Positions 56,357 to 62,607 of a stretch of 64,000 nt of DNA are shown one piece after another. Each line of letters opens with the position of its first letter. Positions within the stretch are counted from its first letter, which is position 1. Source of the DNA: Sphingobium wenxiniae (lineage in GTDB: Bacteria > Pseudomonadota > Alphaproteobacteria > Sphingomonadales > Sphingomonadaceae); the NCBI RefSeq assembly GCF_007830065.1, contig NZ_VLKK01000002.1, forward strand, positions 62,001 through 126,000, in the 5' to 3' direction. The notes under the pieces are model-generated. The model was not told the DNA's origin. It was given only the letters and a program-made list of their open reading frames with translations, and made no database searches. Position numbers and translations under genes: made by a program.

Positions 56357-57535
56357 CTACATCACCTCGAACAACCCCGCCGCGCCCATGCCGCCGCCGA
56401 CGCACATCGTCACTACGACATAGCGGGCGCTCCGGCGCTTGCCTTCGATCAGCGCGTGCATCGTCATGCGCGCGCCGCTCATCCCATAGGGATGGCCGAT
56501 GGAAATGGCGCCGCCGTCCACATTGAGCAGCTCGTCCGGAATGCCCAGCCTGTCGCGGCAGTAGAGCACTTGCACCGCGAACGCCTCGTTCAGTTCCCAC
56601 AAGCCGATGTCCGCCATGGTCAGGCCGTTGCGTTCCAGCAGTTTGGGCACCGCGAAGACCGGGCCGATCCCCATCTCGTCGGGCCGCGTGCCTGCCACGG
56701 CGATACCGACATAGCGGCCGAGCGGCGTCAGCCCCTTCTTCGCCACCAGCGCCTCGTCCATCACCACCACCGCCGCCGCGCCGTCCGACATCTGGCTGGC
56801 ATTGCCCGCGGTGATGCAACCGTCCGCCGATACGACCGGCTTCAGGCTTGCGAGGCCCTCCGCCGTTGTGTCGGGCCGGTTGCCCTCATCGGCGGCAAGC
56901 GTGATCTCGCGCCGGCTGATCTCGCCCGTCGCCTTATCCGTGACGGCCATGCCCGCCGTGAAGGGTACGATTTCCGCATCGAAGCGCCCTGCCGCCTGCG
57001 CGGCGGCCGTGCGCTGCTGGGAACGCAGCGCATAGGCGTCCTGTGCGTCCCGGCCGATGCCATAGCGCGCAGCCACCACCTCGGCGGTTTGCAGCATGGG
57101 CATGTAGATGTCAGGCTGCATCGCCACCAGATCGTCATCGGAACCGACGCGCATTTCACCGGTCTGGACCAGCGATACCGACTCGACCCCGCCCGCAACG
57201 CAGATGCCCATGCCGTCATTTGCCACCTGATTGGCCGCCACGCCTATTGCCATCAGACCGGACGCGCATTGCCGGTCGATCGACATGCCCGCAACACCGA
57301 CCGGCAGCCCCGCTCGCAGCGCCGCCTGCCGCGCAATGTTGCGCGCCTGCATTCCCTGCTGGAGCGCGGCGCCCCAGATGCAGTCCTCCACCTCTCCGGG
57401 CGCAAGGCCCGCGCGAGCAACGGCGTGGGCGATCGCATGGCCCGACAGCGCTTGCGGCGTGGTGGCATTGAACGCACCCCGAAAAGCCCGCCCGATAGGC
57501 GTCCGGGCGGCCGAGACGATGAGCGCTGCGGTCAT
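56357..57535 (-). CDS. acetyl-CoA acetyltransferase (thiolase)
   Basis: A 392-residue thiolase with a complete active site: nucleophile Cys in [13 protein letters not shown] near residue 89, [23 protein letters not shown] and the second Cys in TMCVGGGMG. It would release acetyl- or propionyl-CoA from a 3-ketoacyl-CoA. The gene converges with the LvaC-like ACAD gene, and its promoter carries the same ATACC-N4-GGTAT repeat as the ligase/kinase divergon, so it is probably in that regulon. It is the only window gene with a normal thiolase active site. Confidence 0.92.
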
Positions 57536-57626: not shown

Positions 57627-58694
57627 CTATCCCAGATCGATCGCCTTGGTCACCGAACGGGTAAGCCCGAAGCTCGGCATGGCCATGCTGTGCTTGCCGA
57701 CGCCGCCGGCCACGAACAACAGATAATCCTCGGGCTTCTCGACCAGGGGCACGAAAGGATCTTCTTCCGATCTGTCGAATGGCGCCATGGCGTCGAAATT
57801 ATCGCGCGCGATGGCCAGCAGTTCCGAACGGCGGTTGCCTGCGTTGCGGAACAGATAGTCCTGGATGTCCTGGATGCCCGGACCGTCGCGGGCAATGGTC
57901 TGCGCATGTTCGGGGCCAATGCAGATCGCAACCTCGCCACGTCCCAGATAGCTGTTGTTATGGCCAATCGTCGAAATGGTGTCGGCGAAGGTGCGCAGGA
58001 TGCCCTCGCCGTCTTCGCTGGTGTGATTGTTGATCTCATGCGGGGATTCGCTGCCATGAACCGTCACGGTCGACATGTCGGGCGCGAAGCCGCGGCGGAC
58101 ATGCAGCGGCAGCCAGGGCGAGGCCAGTTCATTCTCGGCAAGGCAGAAGCTGAATTTGGCGGGCGTGCCATGTGTGGCGCGGTCGCCCTTGCCCGGCGTG
58201 CCTCCGGCGATGTTGACGAGGATCAGCCGGATGGCGCGGCCGATGGTGGCGTTGGCGCGCCAGCCCTGTCCCATGCAGTTATAGCCTGAATTGACGCGCA
58301 GCCGCTCCGCCGCCGGGCCGTTTATCACCAGCATGGGCGTGACCGGATGGGTCGTGGCATTGATGCCGTAGAGATTGAACTCATATTCCACCATCGCTTC
58401 CACGGCGGCGGCCAGAACGGGCAGATATTCGGGCCGGCAACCCGCCATCACCGCGTTGACGGCGATCTTCTCGATTGTCGCCTGCCCATAAGCCGGGCCG
58501 AGCGCGCCCAGGGATTCGGCCGGGTCGCGGCGCAGGCCGTCCAGCATTCGAGCCACGCGATCCGGAGTCGGCGGGACGACGGGAAGCCCGTCCGTCACGC
58601 CCAGCCGATAGAGTTCTTCGTTCGCTTCCTCGAAATCGAGCGTTGCGGGAATGGTGAGAAAGCGCTCCGCGCTGTCGGGAGTCATCGTCGTCAT
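57627..58694 (-). CDS. conserved protein with GVTDGLPVVPPT motif, partner of CGSC protein
   Basis: A 355-residue soluble protein of unknown function. Near residue 32 it reads LGVTDGLPVVPPTPDRV, then NAVMAGCRPEYLPVLAAAV, PMLVINGPAAERL, YNCMGQGWRANATIGRAI, and ends in FVAGGVGKHSMAMPSFG. No cofactor or nucleotide motif of a known family is apparent. Conserved-looking Cys residues occur in MAGC and NCMGQG. Its ATG overlaps the stop of the upstream CGSC gene by ATGA, so the two are made together and probably form one enzyme. I do not recognise a reaction. Confidence 0.75.
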   Translation of the reverse strand: MTTMTPDSAERFLTIPATLDFEEANEELYRLGVTDGLPVVPPTPDRVARMLDGLRRDPAESLGALGPAYGQATIEKIAVNAVMAGCRPEYLPVLAAAVEAMVEYEFNLYGINATTHPVTPMLVINGPAAERLRVNSGYNCMGQGWRANATIGRAIRLILVNIAGGTPGKGDRATHGTPAKFSFCLAENELASPWLPLHVRRGFAPDMSTVTVHGSESPHEINNHTSEDGEGILRTFADTISTIGHNNSYLGRGEVAICIGPEHAQTIARDGPGIQDIQDYLFRNAGNRRSELLAIARDNFDAMAPFDRSEEDPFVPLVEKPEDYLLFVAGGVGKHSMAMPSFGLTRSVTKAIDLG

Positions 58695-59317
58695 ATGGCG
58701 CACATCATTTCCGAACGGGTGAACTTGTCGCTTTCATCGATGAAGCGGTCGGTATACTCCGTTTCGAGGGTGTCGGCATCGCCGGTAAGCACATGGACCA
58801 CCTGAGCCGCCATCGCTGCCGCGCGCCTTTCAACCTCTTCCGCCGAAACGTCGCCCATGGGATGGGGAACCGTGACGATGGGAAGCCCCGGCACGCCCAG
58901 CGCGACCGCTTCCTGCTGCCCCAGCACGACGAAGGCGTCGCTATTGACCGTTGCGGTCGGCACGCCGCGCTTTTCCAGCGTCACGCCGTCATGGACGCAC
59001 CAGGATGTGCACGAGCCGCAATCGCCATAAGCGTTAATGACGGCATCGCATCTGGCAAGGTCGTCGATCATCTCGTCAGGCGCCGCAGGAGAGGAGCTGA
59101 TCTTCCGGCGGGAGATCAGTTCCGCCACTCCATGATCGCGGATCAATATCGCGCCCACGGCGGCAAGCAGGCGATCGGCATTCTTCTTCGTGTTGTCGAG
59201 CAGGCCGATCCGCGCGCCCCGCAATGTCTTCAGGCGGAGCGCGATCGGCGCGCGCTCCGCCAAGCGGACACCAAGGGGACTCATCAAAAAGCCGCCGTCG
59301 CTCTGGTCGTGTGGCAC
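58691..59317 (-). CDS. UGSC-type protein in its cysteine (CGSC) form
   Basis: A roughly 208-residue protein. IGLLDNTKKNADRLL near residue 38 is a Rossmann-like first strand and helix. YGDCGSCTSWCVHDGVTLEKRGVPT (positions about 97-121) carries Cys-Gly-Ser-Cys plus a third Cys and a His. The ending PGLPIVTVPHPMGDVSAEEVE is typical of the UGSC (seleno)protein family, in which the first Cys is sometimes selenocysteine; the codon here is TGC. A GTG with GGGAGAG 6 nt upstream is the likely start; an ATG 6 nt earlier abuts it. The reaction is unknown; redox or thiol chemistry is suggested by the motif. Confidence 0.8.
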   Translation of the reverse strand: MPHDQSDGGFLMSPLGVRLAERAPIALRLKTLRGARIGLLDNTKKNADRLLAAVGAILIRDHGVAELISRRKISSSPAAPDEMIDDLARCDAVINAYGDCGSCTSWCVHDGVTLEKRGVPTATVNSDAFVVLGQQEAVALGVPGLPIVTVPHPMGDVSAEEVERRAAAMAAQVVHVLTGDADTLETEYTDRFIDESDKFTRSEMMCAI

Positions 59318-59381
59318 AGGCATCTCTCCCGGGGCTGACTATCGCCCGCAGCCATGGGCTTTGAACTCTCTGCAAGATGAC

Positions 59382-59396
59382 AGACGGAATCCGTCT
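59382..59396. promoter_or_regulatory. perfect palindrome AGACGGA-A-TCCGTCT
   Basis: A 15-bp odd palindrome in the divergent promoter between the CGSC and LysR genes, 65 nt before the CGSC start. This is a good candidate for the primary LysR binding site. Confidence 0.5.
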
Positions 59397-59422: not shown

Positions 59423-59439
59423 GATAACGTTACCTTATC
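59423..59439. promoter_or_regulatory. inverted repeat GATAA-N7-TTATC near LysR start
   Basis: Perfect 5-bp arms with a 7-nt spacer containing TAACGTTA symmetry, 15 nt before the LysR start. It could be an autoregulatory LysR subsite or a chance A+T-rich repeat. Confidence 0.35.
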
Positions 59440-59454
59440 GCGTCAGTTGAGATC

Positions 59455-60369
59455 ATGATGGACCTGCGGCAGATACGTTACTTCCTGGCGGTGGCGGACA
59501 CGTTGAACTTCCGACGCGCCGCCGAGCGCATCGCCGTTTCCCAACCGGCTCTGTCACAGCGGATAAAGGCGCTGGAGGACGATATCGGCGCCCCCTTGTT
59601 CGAGCGGTCGAGCCGGGGTGTCGCGCTGACCCCCGCGGGCGAGGTGTTCCAGCGCGGCGCGCGCAAGATATTGCGCGAAGTCGAACTGGCGCTGTCCAGC
59701 GCCAGGCTTGCCGACCGTGGGGAGAGCGGCGATTTGACCATCGCCTTTAACGAGATAGCGGGCCAGCAGCCGCTCGTCGGCCAGTGCCTTGGCCTGTTCC
59801 GCGCCGCCTTTCCCAATGTCGCCGTCCAACTGTCGGAAATGGGTATGGCCGCTCAGGAGGATGCTCTGCTGAGCGGAGCGGTCGACATCGGCTTCCATTA
59901 TCGCGTGCCCGGTCCAGCGACGGGGCTTGCATATCGCATACTCGACGAGGCTGCCTTCATGCTGGTCATGCCCGAAGGGCACGCTCTTGCGCGTAAGGCG
60001 GCCATATCCCTGGAGGATCTGGCGAATCAGCCCATGGTCAGGCTGCGGCGCGAGATCAATGCCGATACGCATGACGGCATCGTGCAGGCGTTCGCGACGC
60101 ACCGCATACGCCCACGGATATTGGTGGAGGCGTCCAGCGACGCGGCCATGCTGAGCCTGGTTTCGGCGGGCCTTGGCCTAGCTATCGTCATGGGAGCGCA
60201 GCGGCGCGGCGGCTGGGAGGGGCTGGCGCTGCGCCCGATCGAGGGTCTGGCGATGGCCAAGCAGTTCGTCCTTGCCTGGGATGCCGCGAAACGCTCCGCT
60301 CCACGCGACAAATTCCTCGCCCTGGTCGACAGGGCGGCAAAGATGGCGCCGGGCGGGCTGGAACGATGA
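59455..60369 (+). CDS. LysR family transcriptional regulator
   Basis: A 304-residue regulator. The N-terminal helix-turn-helix is MDLRQIRYFLAVADTLNFRRAAERIAVSQPALSQRIKALEDDIG, continuing to LFERSSRGVALTPAGEVF. The C-terminal two-lobe sensing domain includes LTIAFNEIAGQQ and LAIVMGAQ. It is divergent from the CGSC/GLPVVPPT pair, the classical arrangement for LysR activation of a neighbouring operon, and its stop overlaps the following amidohydrolase start by ATGA. The inducer is unknown. A second ATG lies directly after the first. Confidence 0.92.
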   Translation: MMDLRQIRYFLAVADTLNFRRAAERIAVSQPALSQRIKALEDDIGAPLFERSSRGVALTPAGEVFQRGARKILREVELALSSARLADRGESGDLTIAFNEIAGQQPLVGQCLGLFRAAFPNVAVQLSEMGMAAQEDALLSGAVDIGFHYRVPGPATGLAYRILDEAAFMLVMPEGHALARKAAISLEDLANQPMVRLRREINADTHDGIVQAFATHRIRPRILVEASSDAAMLSLVSAGLGLAIVMGAQRRGGWEGLALRPIEGLAMAKQFVLAWDAAKRSAPRDKFLALVDRAAKMAPGGLER

Positions 60370-61196
60370 TTGTCGATGCGCAAATCCACATCTGGGAGGC
60401 CGATCGCCCGGACCGGCGCTGGCCGGCAGCGGGCGCCGAGGGCCGTACCGCCGTTCCCCAGCGCGCAATCCCCCTGTCCGCCGCCGAAGCGCTGGGCGAG
60501 ATGGACGCGGCGGGCGTGGAGCGGGCGATCATCGTTCCGCCCTCGTGGGAAGGCGACCGCAACGATGTCGCGCTCCAGGCAGCGGCGGATTACCCTGAAC
60601 GCTTCGCGGTGATGGGCCGGATCGCACCCGGACCGGCGTTGCTCGACAAGTTGCCGACATGGCGGCAGCAACCCGGAATGTTGGGTGCGCGGCTGATCCT
60701 GAGCGATGGCGATCCCCGCGTGGCCGAAGGACCGGATCACCCTTTCTGGCATGCGGCGGCGGCGGTCCGCCTCCCCCTCATGCTGGCGCCGTCAGGCAAG
60801 ATGCCGCTGCTGACGGCAATCGCGCGGAACCACCCGGCCCTGCCGATCATCGTCGACCATATGGGCGCACGGGTGCACAGGAAGGGCGGGGAAGCCTTCG
60901 CGCAGATCGAAGATGTTCTGGCGCTCGGCAACCTTGCCAATGTCGCGGTGAAGGCGACCTGCCTGCCGGATTACAGTGCCCTGCAACACCCATGGGCCGA
61001 TGTTGCGCCCTATGTCGAGCGCCTGTTCCAGCGCTTCGGAGCGGAGCGGCTGTTCTGGGGATCGGACCTCAGCCGCCTGCCCTGCCCCTACCCGCTCCTG
61101 GTCGAAACCTTTCGCAGCGGATTCTCCTGGCTCAGGGGACGGGACAGGGATCTTGTGATGGGCGGCGGCATACGGGCCTGGCTGGACTGGCGATAA
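60366..61196 (+). CDS. amidohydrolase family (Amidohydro_2) protein
   Basis: A 276-residue TIM-barrel hydrolase of the lactonase-like branch. The N-terminal metal motif is MIVDAQIHIW (D4, H8), with MLAPSGKM and PIIVDHMGARVH in mid-barrel and LFWGSDLSRLPCPYP at the C-terminal Asp. Related proteins open lactones or hydrolyse dicarboxylates. It is translationally coupled to LysR, an uncommon fusion of regulation and metabolism in one message, so its substrate may be related to the LysR inducer. It converges with an ACAD gene. Confidence 0.84.
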   Translation: MIVDAQIHIWEADRPDRRWPAAGAEGRTAVPQRAIPLSAAEALGEMDAAGVERAIIVPPSWEGDRNDVALQAAADYPERFAVMGRIAPGPALLDKLPTWRQQPGMLGARLILSDGDPRVAEGPDHPFWHAAAAVRLPLMLAPSGKMPLLTAIARNHPALPIIVDHMGARVHRKGGEAFAQIEDVLALGNLANVAVKATCLPDYSALQHPWADVAPYVERLFQRFGAERLFWGSDLSRLPCPYPLLVETFRSGFSWLRGRDRDLVMGGGIRAWLDWR

Positions 61197-61227: not shown

Positions 61228-62607
61228 TCAGAGCGACACGGGCTTCAGATTATATTTCTCGACGGGCGGGTTCTTCTCGGTATCGGCATGGCCTTCCTCG
61301 AATGTGAGGCCAAGCTCGTCGAGAATGGGTTTGAGCTGTTTTTCAGCCCAGACCTTCTTGATGAAAGTGGTTTCGCTCGGAAGATTGCTGTCGAGACGCG
61401 GCGTATATTCCCGCAGCAGCAGCTTGGACACATTGGCGAGATGCAATTCGGTCACGCCATCGGCCGCGCCCTCATGCAGCGCCACGGCCATAAGCTCGCC
61501 GAAATGCATGATGTTCGACAGGCCGTGCGACCCGTGCAGATGCACCGCGCGCACCGTCACGTCCTGCGCGATCTTGGCCATCGCCGCCTTGATCGCGCTG
61601 ATCATCTTGCGGCCCTGCGCGCCATGCTCCTCCTGCTGGTCGAACATCCAGGCGGTGTAGAGGACGAGCAGCCGGAACTGCATATATTCGATATAGCTTT
61701 CCGCGATCATCGTCTGGACCGCCTGCTTCTCCGCGATGGGTTTCCCGCCCGAGAAGCGGCTGACCGCGCGCTCCGCCATCATGTCGATAAGATGCTTGAC
61801 GAGGCCGATGGTGCGTTGGGCATGATGCAGCCGCCCGCCGCCCAGACGCGACTGCGCGACCTTGAACCCCTCTCCCACCGGGCCGAGCCGCGCGCTGTCG
61901 GGCACGCGGACATCATTGAAGCGGATCCAGGGATGCCCGCCCGAATTGGGGCTGTCCGTCCAGAAGCCGATATTGCGCACGATCTCGAAGCCCGGCGCGT
62001 CGGTCGGGACGATGAACATCGTGGCGCGGCTGTGCGGCGGCGCGTCGGGATCGGTCGCGGTCATCACGATCATGAATTCGGCGTGGTTGGCGTTGGACGC
62101 GAACCATTTGTCGCCGGTGATCACCCAGTCGTCACCATCGCGGCGCGCGACGCAGCGCAAGTTGGTCGGGTCCGATCCGCCCTGCGGCTCGGTCATCGCG
62201 AAGGTGGAGAACATATCGCCGTCGAGCACGGGCTGGAGATATCTGGCCTTCTGCTCCTCGGTCCCGAACATGGCGAGGATTTCCATATTGCCGGTGTCCG
62301 GTCCCTGGCAGCCGAATATCACCGGCCCGAAAGCCGATGTGCCGAACATCTCGTTGATATAGGTGAGCTTGACCGCGCCGAAGCCTTTGCCGCCCAGATG
62401 CGGGGGCAGATGCGCGGCCCACAGGCCCTGCTCCTTCACCTCCTGCTGGAGGCGCTTGATGATCTTGCGCAGCGGCTTGTTCTTGATGTCATAGGCCGCG
62501 TCCTTGTCATAATCGTAGATGAATTCGAGGGGACGAACCTTGTTCTCGACAAAGTCCTTCATCCAGTCGAGCTTCTTCTGAAATTCCGGTTCTACGGTGA
62601 AATCCAT
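61228..62607 (-). CDS. acyl-CoA dehydrogenase family protein, long C-terminus
   Basis: A 459-residue ACAD. The long N-terminal helix (MDFTVEPEFQKKLDWMKDFVENKVRP) is followed by LPPHLGGKGFG, FAMTEPQGGSDPTNL, WFASNANHAEF and MAVALHEGAADGVTELHLA, then a roughly 50-residue extension beyond the usual end. Glu in HEGAADG may be the C-terminal base. It is preceded by an APH-type kinase gene on the same strand, 22 nt away, as in the ACAD10/11 pair. Both ordinary dehydrogenation and phosphate elimination are possible. GGGAGAAGCAGG precedes the ATG. Confidence 0.88.
   Translation of the reverse strand: MDFTVEPEFQKKLDWMKDFVENKVRPLEFIYDYDKDAAYDIKNKPLRKIIKRLQQEVKEQGLWAAHLPPHLGGKGFGAVKLTYINEMFGTSAFGPVIFGCQGPDTGNMEILAMFGTEEQKARYLQPVLDGDMFSTFAMTEPQGGSDPTNLRCVARRDGDDWVITGDKWFASNANHAEFMIVMTATDPDAPPHSRATMFIVPTDAPGFEIVRNIGFWTDSPNSGGHPWIRFNDVRVPDSARLGPVGEGFKVAQSRLGGGRLHHAQRTIGLVKHLIDMMAERAVSRFSGGKPIAEKQAVQTMIAESYIEYMQFRLLVLYTAWMFDQQEEHGAQGRKMISAIKAAMAKIAQDVTVRAVHLHGSHGLSNIMHFGELMAVALHEGAADGVTELHLANVSKLLLREYTPRLDSNLPSETTFIKKVWAEKQLKPILDELGLTFEEGHADTEKNPPVEKYNLKPVSL

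Follow-up and report, generated by a model that had tools for sequence, protein, structure and literature searches.

Which reaction is carried out by the products of two overlapping genes that lie, between CoA-ester degradation genes, on a contig of Sphingobium wenxiniae (NZ_VLKK01000002.1)? An initial annotation had read them as a UGSC-type protein and a partner outside the recognised enzyme classes, joined in one two-subunit enzyme under LysR control. We examined this reading in a window of 64,000 nucleotides, by which we mean the whole stretch of DNA analysed (positions 62,001 to 126,000 of the contig), and in related loci from other genomes. Both open reading frames, and the ATGA shared by the stop codon of one and the start codon of the other, were found where they had been placed, and this overlap is predicted to couple their translation. 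A GTG upstream of the ATG of the partner gene would yield 358 amino acids instead of 355, and residues of the partner are numbered here from that GTG.

Table 1. Features of the UGSC-partner locus; coordinates are positions in the window.
Feature	Coordinates	Strand	Remarks
Thiolase	56357..57535	-	91 bp downstream of the pair, same strand
Partner subunit, unnamed family	57627..58694	-	355 aa from the ATG at 58692-58694
ATGA overlap, UGSC stop / partner start	58691..58694	-	From sequence
UGSC-family protein, Cys form	58691..59323	-	210 aa, ATG start; PF24696 and NF041046
15-bp perfect palindrome AGACGGAATCCGTCT	59382..59396	.	From sequence; absent from the L002 spacer
GATAA-N7-TTATC, T-N11-A LysR box	59423..59439	.	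Conserved in L002 (alignment of two spacers)
LysR-type regulator	59455..60369	+	304 aa; divergent from the pair; PF03466, PF00126
Amidohydro_2 (lactonase-like) hydrolase	60366..61196	+	PF04909, E 3.3e-24; overlaps the end of lysR

The divergent LysR gene and the amidohydrolase frame overlapping its end were also as first described, and the hydrolase is probably a pathway enzyme that stands outside the core enzyme. The proposed four-gene unit is present in the window but is kept only loosely in three close relatives: one has a divergent LysR gene adjoining the pair (L002, 66% identical to the LysR of the window), another has the amidohydrolase, divergent from UGSC and without LysR between them (L003, 63% identical), and the third has neither. 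The unit is therefore a loose association. A further amidohydrolase, 44% identical to the Amidohydro_2 protein of the window, occurs at L045. The thiolase gene possibly belongs to the same operon as the pair; in L002 to L004, which are close relatives, no such linkage was seen.

Conservation also separates two candidate operators in the 131-bp spacer between lysR and UGSC. The 15-bp perfect palindrome that had been linked to LysR does exist, but the corresponding spacer of L002, the nearest relative, lacks it, and we rejected it as a conserved operator. Its occurrence in the spacer is in any case weak evidence, because perfect palindromes of 14 bp or more occur 24 times in the window. Common to the two spacers, on the minus strand, is GATAA-N7-TTATC followed by AGATCAAA, and from this alignment GATAA-N7-TTATC appears the likelier operator.

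The smaller protein is a member of the UGSC family, matching PF24696 with an E value of 8.8e-59 (198.9 bits, cut-off 25) and NF041046 with 156.6 bits (cut-off 125). Its [U/C]GSC motif is the CGSC of residues 102-105, and the Cys-Gly-Ser-Cys with a Cys and His cluster that had been noticed at the outset corresponds to GDCGSCTSWC (Cys102, Cys105 and Cys109) together with H154. The codon at the first motif position is TGC, so the protein contains no selenocysteine, and its own genome lacks selA; a cysteine form is still a member, because NF041046 is named a '(seleno)protein'. Among 61 relatives, 42 have an in-frame UGA at the position of the Cys102 codon (37 UGSC and 5 UGAC). Compared with shuffled sequence, the 48 bases that begin with the UGA fold into a hairpin of greater stability (mean z -2.37, n = 42), whereas the corresponding bases of cysteine copies do not (mean z +0.14, n = 16). 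Of 28 genomes with UGSC, 26 have selA, as against 14 of the 261 without UGSC (Fisher p 1e-24); the two exceptions are the genome of the window, with its cysteine form, and a genome that is 77% complete (G011). Given the UGA and hairpin in 42 of the 61 relatives and the co-occurrence of selA, the UGSC protein of the window is a selenoprotein in its cysteine form. The second cysteine of the UxxC motif is nearly invariant across UGSC copies, and Cys102 is probably the catalytic nucleophile, with Cys105 as the resolving thiol.

At least four switches between the Sec and Cys labels are needed on a tree of the large-subunit family, where the clade of the window groups with haloarchaeal Natrinema copies, likewise cysteine forms. 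Outside their own group, the sphingomonad pair is closest to two copies on Natrinema plasmids (L035 and L091; 58-60% identity), a similarity pointing to a putative transfer between domains. In three genomes selA lies no more than 5-7 kb from a UGSC-partner locus (G091 C73, G123 C19 and G057 C1), and on plasmid pFER4 of Paracoccus ferrooxidans (L042) selA and selB flank it; at all four loci the distance stays within about 5-10 kb, and selenocysteine machinery and UGSC selenoenzyme may travel together. The same proximity would suit the view that the pair is a carrier or assembly factor for selenium or sulfur, serving for example selenium delivery, and not a metabolic enzyme. We consider this very improbable, given the cysteine forms in selA-free genomes, that of the window included, and on haloarchaeal plasmids, and given a catabolic context that differs among the copies.

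As had been supposed, the 355-residue partner belongs to no family described in Pfam, NCBIfam or the PDB, as far as sequence searches go: neither the protein nor any of its 71 homologues gave a match, and our attempt to name the family with the profile of all 72 members returned none in the same databases. PF09338 (GrdE/PrdA) matched none of the 72 sequences, and no homology was detected between the partner family and either UGSC or PrdB-like proteins. The motifs singled out at the start (LGVTDGLPVVPPT, MAGC and YNCMGQGW) are all present, but the impression that they are conserved did not hold for each of them, since Cys89 of MAGC is retained in 96% of the 72 homologues and Cys143 of NCMGQG in only 33%. 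In the larger protein it is Cys89, and not Cys143, that is the conserved cysteine. Invariant in the 72 homologues are D38, G39, G129, R156 and E190. An AlphaFold model of the partner, made from an alignment of four close sequences, was unusable (pLDDT 40). Around some partners the open frame extends to 480-550 amino acids; since the UGSC gene stands apart at these loci, the extension was taken for GC-rich upstream sequence that happens to be open.

The partnership of the two families is obligate. We sampled 289 alphaproteobacterial genomes evenly and detected the large family in 28 of them, precisely those in which UGSC was detected; among a further 398 genomes, drawn from the phylum, the two families again coincided, in five. 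This comparison had been set beforehand, and the families were found together (28 of 28 and 5 of 5 genomes), not mostly apart. At 61 of 63 loci with a large gene, a UGSC domain is encoded on the same strand, adjoining or fused, the remaining two being L076 and L090. Separate genes stand in either order, and in fusions UGSC always comes first. The idea of one two-component unit is borne out by this distribution, in which every sampled genome with either family has both, adjoining or fused. Through plasmid records the known range of the pair widens to actinobacteria, beta- and gammaproteobacteria, Sporomusa and haloarchaea, and the viral contigs searched contained no relatives. Several genomes have many paralogues, up to 7-8 copies in a single genome.

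Some loci depart from the simple pair. In a frequent layout, two tandem large-subunit paralogues come after a single UGSC gene, often with a thioredoxin reductase gene (L045, L047, L049, L051, L053, L054, L056 and L058-L060), which suggests a UGSC plus A/B heteromer. Fusions with a decayed CGSC were found in Vibrio europaeus (L041:8164-10011, where the motif reads MGTS) and Sporomusa termitida (L040:8236-10044); they adjoin aconitase X and DUF126 genes, and are probably a lineage in which the original chemistry was lost. Another fusion without CGSC, on a plasmid of Neorhizobium galegae VafX2 (L088:8254-9991), is spread over two overlapping frames.

In 2008 Zhang and Gladyshev described UGSC together with UGSC/Unknown_1, its fusion to a conserved domain without a name (PMC2398784); their paper gives 255 UGSC sequences in the GOS survey, ranking UGSC among the most abundant environmental selenoprotein families. 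That fusion is very probably the pair described here, although the genes of the window differ from it in encoding cysteine in place of selenocysteine and in being separate and overlapping.

The reaction type is suggested by distant kinship. In hhalign comparisons, a profile of 61 UGSC sequences aligned with PrdB-like UPxC selenoproteins of the same class at an E value of 5.5e-6, UxxC on UxxC, whereas twelve unrelated controls gave values of at least 0.025 and 60 column-shuffled profiles at least 0.0092. When 41 UGSC members were compared with 18,950 NCBIfam models, the five most-matched after UGSC itself were all Grd/Prd models: gly_red_sel_B (16 members), PrdB (9), GrdF (9), GrdH (6) and various_sel_PB (3). 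Against TIGR01917 (GrdB) the UGSC protein of the window gives a weak match over residues 335-408 of the model, around the GrdB selenocysteine, Sec350 (PMC3091704), scoring 14.3 bits against a cut-off of 602.2. Counted against the kinship, the single-sequence matches are weak (best E 7e-4, with PrdB) and far below cut-offs, none of the 41 members being convincing alone with TIGR01917, TIGR01918, TIGR04483, NF040794 or NF040795. By these comparisons, the UGSC domain is distantly homologous to the domain of selenoprotein B in Grd and Prd systems, and not a member of that family.

The architecture can be compared with both reductases. D-proline reductase likewise combines a small UxxC (seleno)protein (PrdB, 242 aa, Sec152) with a larger partner, PrdA, and the motifs of PrdB and UGSC align. 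Unlike PrdA, however, the UGSC partner shows no homology to the PrdA/GrdE family (PF09338) in our searches, the UGSC protein is shorter than PrdB before the Sec site, and the hosts of the UGSC pair are mostly aerobic catabolic bacteria and haloarchaea, whereas those of Prd are Stickland fermenters. With protein B of glycine, sarcosine and betaine reductase (GrdB, GrdF or GrdH with GrdE), UGSC aligns in the C-terminal Sec region of GrdB, but it lacks the N-terminal part of GrdB, and neither GrdA nor the acetyl-transfer proteins C and D are linked to it. Several substrate-specific copies per genome are a trait of Grd systems and of FarBE, a fluoroacetate reductase compared alongside Grd protein B systems (PMC10838667), and a putative one of UGSC copies. 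A GrdA search (PF04723) gave no match in the genome of the window and none in any control genome either, and a search for GrdE/PrdA-type proteins (PF09338), run without a positive control, gave none in the genome of the window; these negatives count against a reductase of the Grd/Prd kind. Many PrdB/GrdB-like selenoproteins with a UPxC motif were seen in alphaproteobacteria (L092-L111), and in ten genomes with PrdB-like genes no GrdE/PrdA-type partner was matched, again in a search without positive control.

GrdB obtains its electrons via thioredoxin reductase and thioredoxin (PMC3091704), which by analogy are the candidate electron source for UGSC. Thioredoxin reductases with a CxxC motif are encoded within 3 kb of the pair at 16 of 61 loci, and their cluster was the largest when neighbours were clustered without bias; in Arthrobacter the gene order is trxB-trxA-partner-UGSC. 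No thioredoxin reductase is linked to the locus of the window, and the one clear copy in the genome is on another contig. The adjoining reductase and the CxxC/UxxC motif would also suit a thiol or selenol peroxidase, or a disulfide reductase, that protects against peroxides or electrophiles and does not cleave a catabolic substrate; a peroxidase activity of GrdB has been reported by a paper that PMC3091704 cites, and a thioredoxin-like fold was guessed for UGSC in PMC2398784. The AlphaFold model of UGSC (pLDDT 62.7, pTM 0.65), with an alpha/beta fold and CGSC at a helix start after the central strand, mildly speaks against that guess: its best PDB fold matches are generic Rossmann/flavodoxin types with a TM score of only about 0.4, and thioredoxin is absent among the 50 best. 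Searches for specific kin of the fold gave these generic alpha/beta matches only, and the UGSC profile had no match among PDB sequences. Considering also that up to 7-8 paralogues per genome each stand by different catabolic genes and carboxylate transporters, that the pair is putatively regulated by LysR, and that a second subunit, with D, R and E residues that never vary, is dedicated to it, we find a protective role fairly unlikely.

Other neighbours comprise carboxylate transporters (TRAP, TTT and TAXI), CaiB-type CoA transferases, SDRs, PEP-mutase/isocitrate lyase-type enzymes, luciferase-like monooxygenases and amidohydrolase-type proteins, including DUF6282. These neighbours and the many paralogues would fit a single type of catalysis, applied again and again to different small carboxylic acids; the variation of the neighbours between clades counts against the reading that we prefer. 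Lyases, hydrolases and enolase-superfamily enzymes among the neighbours, the many loci without a linked thioredoxin reductase and the generic alpha/beta model with CGSC at its helix start are consistent with a non-redox enzyme (racemisation, isomerisation, lyase reaction or decarboxylation), where the role of acid/base or nucleophile would fall to Cys102 and another cysteine, as in enzymes of the Asp/Glu racemase type. This is unlikely, however, in view of a selenocysteine at the first motif position, typical of redox chemistry, a second cysteine of UxxC that is nearly always retained, and thioredoxin reductase as the commonest neighbour.

We infer, with a confidence that only modestly favours it, that the pair is a two-subunit, thiol-recycled reductase of the GrdB/PrdB kind, cleaving a C-X bond in carboxylic-acid catabolism. 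The two gene products would assemble into a single heteromer, a widespread selenoenzyme in its cysteine form, whose action would resemble that of GrdB and PrdB within glycine and D-proline reductase. The 355-residue subunit would hold the substrate, with D38, Cys89, R156 and E190 as candidate residues, and the Cys102 thiolate would attack the substrate carbon beside a carbonyl or carboxylate, expelling the leaving group. Cys105 would then attack Cys102, releasing the reduced product, and thioredoxin with thioredoxin reductase would reduce the resulting Cys102-Cys105 disulfide. In the sphingomonad, the enzyme may serve a LysR-induced pathway for a carboxylic acid or lactone, of which the amidohydrolase and the nearby CoA-ester enzymes would be other steps. 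More tentatively, and at a level of confidence that falls short of probable, the family may constitute a class of two-component seleno/thiol reductases in which a GrdB/PrdB-type Sec domain is combined with a new substrate-binding subunit. Such a class would allow alphaproteobacteria, actinobacteria and haloarchaea to break down many different carboxylic acids aerobically, a single genome having as many as 7-8 substrate-specific copies, and would have moved into Sec-free organisms by Sec-to-Cys replacement.

A 2026 review places UGSC among selenoproteins whose functions are largely uncharacterised (PMC13188914). In open-licence papers we found no assignment of function, partner or regulation for UGSC, and relative to the literature found there, the partner family, the co-occurrence, the link to thioredoxin reductase and the kinship with Grd/Prd tested here appear to be new. 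The chemistry of GrdB and PrdB is known from strict anaerobes; if our reading is true, it is also used in aerobic catabolism. The selenoprotein family UGSC would thereby gain an obligate partner, a probable reaction type and a candidate electron source, and with them a testable chemistry, and the cysteine form from a selenocysteine-free sphingomonad should be expressible in ordinary hosts.
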